Of a stretch of 64,000 nt of DNA, positions 181 to 9,052 are shown piece after piece (positions within the stretch are counted from its first letter, which is position 1; each line of letters opens with the position of its first letter). The position numbers were made by a program, and so were the translations under genes. The DNA is taken from NCBI GenBank assembly GCA_035640355.1, contig DASQWI010000026.1:1-64000 (forward strand), written 5' to 3'. The stretch is from Actinomycetota bacterium (GTDB taxonomy: Bacteria > Actinomycetota > UBA4738 > HRBIN12). Under the pieces are notes generated by a model, which worked only from the letters and a program-made list of their open reading frames with translations, was not told the origin of the DNA and searched no databases.

Positions 181-1857
181 CTACCAGGTCACCGCGCCGC
201 GTGAAGCGGAGCCGACGAGTCGCGCGTACTTCGCGAGCGCACCCGACGTGTAGCGCGGATTGGGAGCCTTCCATCCTGCCCGCCTGCGTTCGAGCTCGGC
301 GGCGTCGACGACGAGGTCGAGCGTTCGGTTCGCCGCATCGATCACGATCTCGTCACCGTCGCGCACGAGCGCGATCGGACCGCCGACGAACGCCTCCGGC
401 GAGATGTGGCCAACGCTGTATCCCTTCGATGCGCCGCTGAACCTGCCGTCGGTGATCAGAGCGACCTCCGCGCCGAGCCCCGCCCCGGCGACGGCGGCGG
501 TCACCGCGAGCATCTCCGGCATGCCGGGCGATCCCTTCGGGCCTTCGTATCGGATCACCATCACGTCGCCGGGAACGATCGCCCCGCTCGTCACGGCGTC
601 GAACGCGCCCTGCTCGGAGTCGAACGCGCGGGCCCGCCCGCGGAACTCGAGCGACGCCGCGCCGGCGATCTTCATGACCGAACCCTCCGGTGCGAGCGAG
701 CCGTACAGGACCGCGATCCCGCCATCGCGATGGATCGCGTCCGACGGGGGGTGTACGACGGTGCCGTCCGGGGCACGCACGTCCATCGCCGCGAGGTTCT
801 CGGCGAGGGTCGCGCCCGTGACGGTGAGGCAGTCACCGTTCAGCAAGCCGGCGTCCAACAGCTCCTTCGTCACAACCTGCACGCCGCCGACGCGGTCGAG
901 GTCGCTCATGACGAACTTCCCCGCCGGCCGAACGTCGACAAGGTGTGGGACCACGCGTGAGATCCGCTCGAAGTCGTCCAGTCCCAGCTCGACGCCCGCC
1001 TCGTGCGCGATCGCGATCAGGTGCAGGACAGCATTCGTCGAGCCGGCCAACGCCATCACCACCGCGATGGCGTTCTCGAACGCTTCCTTGGTCAGGATGT
1101 CGCGGGGTCGGATCCTCGCCTCGAGCAGATTGGTCACCGCGATGCCCGATTCCCGCGCGAACACCTCGCGCCGGTAGTCGACCGCCGGAGGAGACGCAGC
1201 CCCGGGAAGCGACATCCCGAGCGCTTCTGCGGCGGCCGCCATCGTGTTCGCCGTGTACATGCCGGCGCACGATCCCGTTGTCGGGCAGGCCGCACGCTCC
1301 ACGCCGAGGAGCTCCTCGTCGGTCATCGTGCCCTTCGAGTGCGCGCCGACCGCCTCGAACACGTCCTGGATCGTGATGTCGCGTCCGTGGTAGGTGCCGG
1401 GAAGGATCGTCCCGCCGTACAGATAGACCGACGGAAGGTTGAGCCGCGCCATCGCCATCAACATGCCGGGCTCGGACTTGTCGCACCCGGCGATGCCGAC
1501 GAGCGCGTCCATCCGTTCGGCGTGCATCACGAGCTCGACCGAATCGGCGATCACGTCACGGCTGACGAGCGAGGCCTTCATCCCCTCGTGCCCCATCGCG
1601 ATGCCGTCGGACACCGCGATCGTCGTGAACTCGAGCGGTACGGCGTTCCCCTGCCGAACGCCTTCCTTCGCCAGCGCCGCAAGCTTGTCGAGGTGATAAT
1701 TGCAGGGCGTCACCTCGTTCCAACTCGACGCCACACCGACCTGCGGCTTGCCGAAGTCGTCCTCGGAGAAACCGACGGCGCGCAGCATCGCGCGCGCGGG
1801 CGCGCGCTCAGGACCGTCGGTGACCTCGCGGCTACGGGGGCGTTCAGCCGGACCCAT
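181..1857 (-). CDS. ilvD: Dihydroxy-acid dehydratase
   Basis: This 558-residue protein is the Fe-S dehydratase of branched-chain amino acid and pantothenate synthesis. It turns 2,3-dihydroxy-3-methylbutanoate (or -pentanoate) into the 2-keto acid. Three cysteines sit where IlvD proteins hold their cluster: C52 in TPCNYHL, C125 in GCDKSEPG and C197 in [16 protein letters not shown]. The C-terminal swivel domain carries GSPGMPEM and DGRFSG. I chose the ATG at 1857 because the longer open frame upstream (to 2415) runs antisense to the next gene and has no family similarity. It diverges from the FAD oxidoreductase at 1930, with 72 bases between. No other ilv genes are in the window, so this is a detached pathway gene. 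The length is normal for the family. Confidence 0.95.
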
Positions 1858-7553: not shown

Positions 7554-7741
7554 GCTGAGGATGGACGACGCCGGAACGGATGGGAAATCGACCTCTCGGT
7601 TCAGGGTTGTGGCCGGTCGCGTGCGTCGACGTCGGATCGTGGGGTCATACCTCGGCTCGCGGTTGTGTTTCAAGAGTCCGTCCCATTGAGGGTGATGACC
7701 GGCTAGCTTTGCCGACAAAAACGGCCAGAGGGAGGAGAACC

Positions 7742-8452
7742 GTGCCGAGTGAGATCGACCGCGAAGATGTTCAACGCCTCGTCGCAGAGGGCGCGCAGCT
7801 CGTCGAGGTCTTGCCGCCTTCGGAGTACCAGGAAGACCATCTGCCCGGAGCGATCAACATCCCCCTGAGGCTCGTCGATGCGCAGGCCAAGGAGATCCTC
7901 GATCGGGATCGCCCGGTGGTCGTGTACTGCTGGGACTCGGCCTGAGACCTCAGCCCACGAGCCGCGTGGCGGCTCGAAGCGCTTGGCTTTGCCGACGTCT
8001 CGGACTACGTTCATGGCAAGCTCGACTGGCTTGCCGCGGGTCTGCCGACCGAGGGGACGAACGCACAGCTCCCCAGAGCGGCCGACGTAGCCAGGAAGGA
8101 CGTGCCCACGTGCGGGCTCGGCGACCGCCTCGGCGACGTGCGTGACCGCGTTCGGTCTGCGGGATGGAAGGCGTGTGTCGTGGTCAACGAGCACTCTGTT
8201 GTTCTGGGTCTGCTTCGCGAGAGGGAGCTCGAAAGCGATGCGAGTCTCGCTATCGAGCAAGCCATGCGGCCGGGACCAAGCACCTTCCGGACCTACGTTG
8301 CGATCGCGGAGATGACCGAGTACATGACCAAGCACGACCTCGTGAACGCGCCCATCACCACCGCGGATGGCAAGCTGGTCGGGCTACTCCTCAGGGAAGA
8401 TGCCCAGCGCTCTACATCGGAGATCCAGCGGTCGAAGGGGAGCGAGAGATGA
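7742..8452 (+). CDS. Rhodanese-CBS protein with in-frame TGA: candidate selenoprotein
   Basis: The frame starts at GTG 7742 after a strong ribosome site (GGAGGAG) and runs to TGA 8450-8452 in one frame, crossed only by a TGA at 7943-7945 (codon 68). Codons 1-67 are the first part of a rhodanese domain (DHLPGAINIPL, VVVYCWDSA with the catalytic-type C63). Codons 69-104 continue it without a break (DLSPRAAWRLEALGF, YVHGKLDWLAAGLP), so the domain spans the TGA. In the relatives I know, this position is Cys (YCWDxxCDLSPRAA). The rest, to codon 236, resembles a CBS-domain pair (VVVNEHSVVLGLL, NAPITTADGKLVGLL). Both sides keep coding character, and a perfect hairpin lies 12 bases after the TGA. Selenocysteine is therefore a good reading. 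A recent nonsense mutation or a sequencing error (TGC to TGA) are the alternatives. selA, selB, selC and selD are not in the window. The stop overlaps the next start (ATGA). Confidence 0.7.
7958..7976 (+). promoter_or_regulatory. Candidate bacterial SECIS hairpin
   Basis: CGAGCCGC pairs perfectly with GCGGCTCG (8 base pairs) around a GTG loop. The loop begins 21 bases after the TGA at 7943-7945. Bacterial SECIS elements lie within the coding sequence just after the UGA, with a small apical loop, a G in its first two positions and about 16-37 bases between UGA and loop; all three hold here. GC-rich coding DNA makes chance hairpins possible, so the match is supportive, not proof. Confidence 0.5.
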
Positions 8453-8628
8453 CCCTCAAATCAATTGGGAGTCCACCCGAGGTCACCCTTCTGGCGTGCG
8501 TGGAATGTGGCCGCGACATCGACGTGTGCGCGTTCTGCGATGAGGCGCAGTGTGGAGCCGCGCTTTGCTACCGCTGTGTCAATCGGCTGCTGTATCTGGC
8601 CTCAGATTCTCATCAGGACGATGGCTGA
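8449..8628 (+). CDS. Small cysteine-rich protein, probably zinc-binding
   Basis: 59 residues that start at the ATG overlapping the previous stop (ATGA), so it is probably translated together with the rhodanese-CBS gene. It has seven cysteines in pairs: CVEC, CAFC, C and CYRC (ACVECGRDIDVCAFCDEAQC and ALCYRCV). This arrangement suggests a treble-clef or ribbon metal site rather than a disulfide protein. I do not recognise a named family. The coupling with a thiol or selenol sulfurtransferase suggests a role as a sulfur or metal partner, which is inference from position alone. Confidence 0.7.
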   Translation: MTLKSIGSPPEVTLLACVECGRDIDVCAFCDEAQCGAALCYRCVNRLLYLASDSHQDDG

Positions 8629-8668
8629 CGTAGGGTCGCGCCCTCGCCGCGAGCGAGAGGAGCCCGTC

Positions 8669-9052
8669 GTGATCGTTCGACAGACATCTCAGGTCGAAGG
8701 GACCAGAGCCGATGCGCGGGGCGACGGTTGGCGCAGCCTTCGCATGCTCACGCGCACCGACGGCATGGGCTTCACGATCACGCACACCACGGTCGAGGAG
8801 GGATTTCGCGCCGAGCTCCAGTACCGCAACCATCTGGAGGCGTGTCTCTGCCTGGAGGGTGCGCTCGAGATCCACAACCTCGACACCGGCGAGCGGCACG
8901 TCGTCCGACCCGGCACGGTCTACGCGCTCGACCGTCACGACAAGCACACGGTGAGCGCGCTCGAGAGAGCGACGCTCGTCTGCGTGTTCGCCCCGGCACT
9001 GGTCGGCGACGAGACGCACGACGAGTCCGGCGGGTACCCCGCCGCCGAGTGA
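8669..9052 (+). CDS. ectC: Ectoine synthase
   Basis: 127 residues, a single-domain cupin that closes N-gamma-acetyl-2,4-diaminobutyrate to ectoine, a compatible solute. The GTG at 8669 follows GAGAGGAG. The metal ligands described for ectoine synthase fall at exactly the same numbers here: E57 (NHLEAC), Y85 (GTVYALD) and H93 (HDKH); Y52 is also kept. The length equals the family norm (about 128). Longer open frames upstream overlap the Cys-rich gene and are not used. No ectA, ectB or ectD lies in the window, so this is an orphan ectC. Such orphans are known and may make ectoine from imported precursor, or catalyse a related ring closure. Confidence 0.9.
   Translation: MIVRQTSQVEGTRADARGDGWRSLRMLTRTDGMGFTITHTTVEEGFRAELQYRNHLEACLCLEGALEIHNLDTGERHVVRPGTVYALDRHDKHTVSALERATLVCVFAPALVGDETHDESGGYPAAE

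Follow-up and report, generated by a model that had tools for sequence, protein, structure and literature searches.

A probable read-through gene joining a rhodanese domain to a CBS pair

We study a gene within a stretch of 64,000 nucleotides from an Actinomycetota bacterium (assembly GCA_035640355.1, contig DASQWI010000026.1, positions 1 to 64,000; hereafter the window). The gene lies on the forward strand and joins a rhodanese domain to a pair of CBS domains in a single reading frame that is crossed by one TGA codon. From comparison with its relatives we consider it very probable that the gene encodes a full-length selenoprotein, with the UGA at 7943-7945 decoded as selenocysteine (Sec). The relevant features, all on the forward strand, are as follows:

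7731..7737, forward: Shine-Dalgarno sequence GGAGGAG, read from the sequence
7742..8452, forward: predicted selenoprotein gene with rhodanese and CBS domains; the product has 236 residues, Sec68 among them, and the stop codon is TGA at 8450-8452
7763..8035, forward: rhodanese domain, residues 8-98 (Pfam PF00581, AlphaFold2 model, Foldseek match to 3nhv)
7928..7930, forward: TGC codon of the catalytic-loop Cys63; TGA instead in six Chloroflexi/Dehalococcoidia loci
7943..7945, forward: in-frame TGA, the putative Sec68 codon; TGA in 92/94 family members
7958..7976, forward: hairpin of the bacterial selenocysteine insertion sequence (bSECIS) type, arms 7958-7965 and 7969-7976, loop GUG 7966-7968
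8081..8410, forward: CBS pair (Bateman module), about residues 114-223, limits approximate (PF00571, PDB profile matches, Foldseek)

The original prediction, made from the letters of this stretch, described a single frame behind a strong ribosome site, with rhodanese and CBS-like coding sequence on both sides of the TGA and an intact second half, and all of this stands. The frame opens at the GTG at 7742, roughly five bases after the Shine-Dalgarno sequence listed above, and TGA 7943-7945 is its sole in-frame interruption. When this codon is entered as C (for Sec), the read-through protein matches both Pfam families over their cut-offs: Rhodanese at 53.1 bits (cut-off 22.2) in a match that spans the TGA, and CBS at 31.3 bits (cut-off 24) in two stretches. 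AlphaFold2, given a 76-row alignment, models the whole read-through protein with a predicted local distance difference test score (pLDDT) of 97.6. In Foldseek the top fold match of the N-terminal half is the rhodanese BH2092 (3nhv, 29% identity), and the C-terminal half matches CBS-pair proteins including AcuB and ST2348, some of them with AMP, ADP or ATP. Coding constraint continues past the TGA: against the four closest relatives tested, and with the hairpin left out, the ratio of nonsynonymous to synonymous change (pN/pS) is 0.31-0.40 downstream of the codon and 0.33-0.53 upstream of it.

The family alignment locates the conserved chemistry of the protein. Sec68 sits five residues past Cys63 in the motif (C/U)-x-D-x-x-U-D-(L/M)-S-P-R-A-A; every aligned member has Cys or TGA at position 63, and Asp65 and Asp69 are invariant. 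Where the CBS part begins there is a further, nearly invariant cysteine, Cys124, which may act as a third thiol.

The TGA is conserved throughout a widespread family

A first search, covering 60 relatives, returned about 18 strong matches, each with a single in-frame TGA. A wider search with an alignment in which the Sec site was masked as X reached 80 loci from named genomes, spread over Actinomycetota (among them Rubrobacter, Acidimicrobiia, Thermoleophilia, Solirubrobacterales), Chloroflexota (Thermomicrobiales, Dehalococcoidia) and Dormibacterota. The tBLASTn tally at the Sec column, over 77 loci, is 75 TGA, one TGT (locus L107) and one in-frame deletion (L126). The full collection from these three phyla holds 94 members, about 40-70% identical, with TGA at the Sec68 codon in 92 of the 94 extracted gene copies and TAA or TAG in none of those 92; a few contigs were reached through two loci, and the copies contain 82 distinct 48-nt stretches after the site. 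Such recurrence of TGA at one codon goes well past what chance would give. Among 396 sampled Actinomycetota genomes the family is present in 42, and nearly every match has the in-frame TGA. One member comes from the finished genome of an isolate, Rubrobacter marinus SCSIO 52915, in which a plasmid carries the gene; RefSeq represents it by its C-terminal piece, WP_166398754.1, a CBS domain protein that starts after the TGA (L144:6259-6753, that is, NZ_CP045122.1 135258-135752).

The original prediction also held that relatives keep Cys at the TGA column. Close relatives keep TGA, so that this detail has to be put differently; Cys does occur there in L107 and in distant rhodaneses, BH2092 (YCWGPAC) being one. 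In L107, which is nested within the Sec forms on the tree, the Sec column holds TGT, the hairpin described below is destroyed and no selB match at E <= 1e-50 turns up in the genome. In L126 (genome G445, 3.9 Mb) three bases including the Sec codon have been deleted in frame, the hairpin is retained and a selB search of the genome gave no match; a hairpin that outlasts both the codon and selB is what one would expect if Sec had been lost recently. One genome with a Sec form also encodes a paralogue (L145, G080:C20:13571-14242) in which the Sec column holds Ser.

At the other end of the series, six loci from five Chloroflexi/Dehalococcoidia assemblies (L082, L085, L086, L088, L095 and L106, the L086 and L088 copies sharing a contig) carry a second TGA, at the catalytic Cys, in addition to the one at position 68, giving a UxxxxU loop such as VVYUMDGLUDMSPRAA. 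The first UGA of these genes lies 35 nt from the apical loop of the hairpin, which is still inside the bSECIS range, and one hairpin could thus serve both UGAs.

A conserved hairpin follows the UGA

The window hairpin, CGAGCCGC-GUG-GCGGCUCG (7958-7976), has 8 bp and a 3-nt loop that begins with G, lies 20 nt after the UGA, and agrees with all four bSECIS criteria published in PMC13188914. Its minimum free energy is -15.1 kcal/mol alone and -21.8 kcal/mol within 48 nt. The hairpin is conserved after the UGA in all TGA-bearing members, and its trace is visible at synonymous sites: over 84 distinct regions, codon entropy at +6, +7, +9 and +10 is 0.28, 0.22, 0 and 0.22 bits, against a background of 1.65-2.16 bits. 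Synonymous sites are frozen solely within the hairpin, whereas other codons, equally conserved, vary. The eight pairs are intact in 96.3% of alignment cells, compared with 28-59% for slid structures. At one pair, four sequences carry a double change from C-G to U-A, a cell count that none of 500 shuffles reaches; because this change brings Arg to Gln, the RNA pair is preserved at the expense of the residue.

The host genome carries the Sec machinery

The original prediction left selA, selB, selD and a tRNA-Sec gene to be looked for in the rest of the genome, and the window assembly (2.79 Mb in 29 contigs, 97% complete) contains all four. The proteins score above their curated cut-offs (selA 478.6, selB 321 and selD 386.4 bits), selA adjoins selB on one contig, and the tRNA-Sec (73.4 bits, anticodon UCA) matches the full 91-position family model. 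Across the family, selB is found over cut-off in 61 of the 76 searched genome handles, some of which are the same genome twice. The Rubrobacter marinus chromosome has selB with a tRNA-Sec beside it.

Neighbouring genes

One further feature adjoins the gene:

8449..8628, forward: open reading frame (ORF) for a small Cys-rich protein of 59 aa (CxxC, CxxC, C, CxxC), overlapping the gene end

Its start overlaps the stop codon of the window gene as ATGA, which agrees with the earlier observation of a Cys-rich protein coupled to the end of the gene. The arrangement recurs in about 22 members, most of which belong to the window's clade with few exceptions: each has a small CxxC protein, with HPHxHGG at its C-terminus, that overlaps the gene or comes after it. 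The product of the ORF matches no Pfam family over cut-off. In one relative (L028) the corresponding frame contains a TAG. Directly downstream of the ORF in the window is a gene for an ectoine synthase-like cupin (8630-9052; PF06339, 149.7 bits).

More distant members have a different neighbourhood. A DF-family (seleno)protein gene (NF049942) lies directly upstream in about ten of these loci, MerR- and ArsR/CmtR-type regulators are found near the gene, and MerA and/or MerB-like genes are close to it in 9 of the 77 loci. MerA exceeds the TIGR02053 cut-off in L070, L072 and L128 and comes near it in L101; candidates in L054 and L107 fall below the cut-off and were dropped. The MerB-like genes (L101, L104, L112, L121, L127, L128, L072 and L078) all score below equivalog cut-offs. 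In L127, a gene at 319-1278 (+), upstream of the rhodanese-CBS selenoprotein gene, fuses a DF-family thioredoxin-like domain to a MerB-like lyase. By an informal estimate, adjacency to mer genes at this frequency would be well above what is expected of genes that a genome usually has in no more than about one copy.

Alternative readings of the TGA

How else could the TGA be read? It could be a true stop, with one mRNA yielding two products, a shortened rhodanese and an independent CBS protein. NCBI annotates the R. marinus plasmid gene in just this way, as a CBS protein beginning after the TGA, and the window does offer candidate start codons farther along (GTG 8102). Termination here would, however, delete the second half of the rhodanese domain just past the catalytic loop, although conservation is highest in that very half (SPRAAWRLE...). 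It would also leave the hairpin and the linkage to selB without explanation, and the codon is always TGA, never another stop, in the 92 members that have one. We therefore regard a true stop as very improbable. Even less can be said for a sequencing error, or for a decaying pseudogene in which a Cys codon has suffered a nonsense mutation. TGA is indeed one base from TGC and TGT, and several of the metagenome-assembled genomes (MAGs) are fragmentary, but the same TGA recurs in dozens of independent assemblies, including that of a finished isolate genome, which rules out a base-call error. The purifying selection downstream and the absence of decay in the window gene speak against a pseudogene, and the chance that either explanation holds is negligible. 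Equally negligible is the chance that TGA is read as some other amino acid, through a variant code or general readthrough. Nothing specific favours this reading: the window gene and the small gene downstream both terminate in TGA, the genome has a complete Sec set, and the SECIS-type hairpin accompanies the TGA, the Cys form no longer having it.

Several observations weigh against the selenoprotein reading or what might be built upon it. The case for Sec insertion is one of comparative sequence evidence. Covariation in the hairpin is limited to the double change at one pair, because the hairpin lies within conserved coding sequence. Several genomes with a TGA-bearing gene give no selB match; most are incomplete MAGs, and one, G060, is 94% complete. 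No clear mer gene lies beside the members of the window's clade (27 rows), and MerA over cut-off was not found in the window genome, so that any assignment of substrate and pathway is tentative.

Proposed mechanism

If the gene does encode a selenoprotein, SelB and tRNA-Sec would decode UGA 7943-7945 under the direction of the hairpin 20 nt downstream, and Cys63 and Sec68 would form a thiol/selenol pair on the rhodanese loop. Cys63 might accept a soft electrophile, such as sulfane sulfur, with Sec68 resolving the adduct through a selenenylsulfide; alternatively, a soft metal ion might be held between the S and Se of the two residues. Classical rhodaneses carry an Arg near the catalytic loop position. 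Its absence here, together with the invariant Asp65 and Asp69, speaks for persulfide/electrophile or soft-metal chemistry and against plain thiosulfate:cyanide transfer. Activity would be coupled to an adenosine ligand through the CBS pair, the likely regulatory input, and the small Cys-rich protein of the window's clade would be a plausible partner or acceptor. Taken as a whole, this chemistry has perhaps an even chance of being right, while every individual substrate remains, at best, an unlikely pick.

For the distant members, gene context (MerA, MerB-like, DF-family and metalloregulator neighbours) suggests a part in handling mercury or thiol stress. An account of function compatible with the Sec reading would make the protein chiefly a mercury or organomercurial factor, and not a sulfurtransferase or a redox enzyme of general use; its Cys/Sec or Sec/Sec pair would bind Hg(II) at a point between the MerB-like and the MerA-like enzyme. 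The nine mer-adjoining loci, the upstream DF-family genes and the nearby MerR- and ArsR-type regulators favour such a role; the two absences noted above for the window's clade and genome, and the scores of the MerB-like matches under equivalog cut-offs, count against it, and we judge it rather unlikely. More doubtful again is the most ambitious picture we can draw, in which the family would be a selenium-dependent part of mercury or organomercurial defence among Actinomycetota and Chloroflexota of soil and sea. Here a Cys/Sec loop (Sec/Sec in some Chloroflexi, with one SECIS hairpin for both UGAs) would capture and pass on a soft metal or reactive sulfur, under nucleotide control by the CBS pair and with a Cys-rich acceptor in the window's clade.

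As a selenoprotein, the family would add a widespread member to the prokaryotic selenoproteome in Actinomycetota, Chloroflexota and Dormibacterota, one whose genes current annotation breaks, so that R. marinus is left with the entry of a headless CBS protein only. It would also offer a natural series of Sec, Sec+Sec, Cys and deleted forms in which the SECIS hairpin and SelB come and go to match; since the lineage includes a cultured host, the use of Sec in these phyla can be put to the test, and the mer-gene neighbourhoods bring a selenium-mercury link within direct test.

Comparison with known rhodanese selenoproteins

The original prediction called the gene a candidate new selenoprotein. The Sec reading is supported and the family is new as a subfamily with a new domain architecture, but rhodanese selenoproteins as such are already known: a May 2026 catalogue of 119 selenoprotein families lists five rhodanese forms and no rhodanese-CBS entry. 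No model in NCBIfam release 20 (June 2026) exceeds its cut-off for the window family, and our literature search found no paper linking rhodanese, selenoprotein and CBS domain, and none for selenoprotein and Dormibacter.

Related sites do occur in stand-alone rhodaneses. Genomes G036 and G242 encode separate proteins of about 104 aa (L150, L151) with TGA at the same C+5 site, in the form YC-x4-U-H-S/A-S, and one of the two copies belongs to Rubrobacter marinus. A screen of 395 genomes from the phylum of L131 (Desulfobacca), which has a stand-alone CxxxxU form, found YCxU forms and one CxxxxU form. The latter is the stand-alone rhodanese L159, YCASDTU (C+5); L161, L164, L170, L171 and L173 are YCTU/YCSU forms (C+2, like the known form 3).

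Among the known systems, the rhodanese-related form 3 (NF041203, YCxU) likewise has Sec near the catalytic Cys, but at C+2 rather than C+5, and its model gives the window protein 18.7 bits where the cut-off is 115. BH2092 of Bacillus halodurans (PDB 3nhv), with the loop YCWGPACNG, has a Cys exactly at the Sec column, but lacks both Sec and the CBS pair. The UxxS pattern of rhodanese-like form 1 (WP_010941598.1; PMC13188914 Table 1) also fits the UDLS/UDMS of the window family, so that the form 1 Sec may occupy the same loop position; this comparison is by description, and the catalogue mentions no CBS domain for form 1. Closest of the NCBIfam selenoprotein models is TsoB (NF045694, 'form 5'), although its match to the window protein, 28.8 bits (3.4e-7), is far under the cut-off of 805. 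TsoB also has Sec in the rhodanese loop with five-residue spacing, and the double-Sec Chloroflexi members share its UxxxxU, but TsoB is a rhodanese/DsbD-like fusion whereas the window family combines rhodanese with a CBS pair and usually has Cys first. Since TsoB, and possibly form 1, use the same loop position, the Sec site itself is not unprecedented; the architecture, lineage, SECIS and neighbourhood of the rhodanese-CBS family are.
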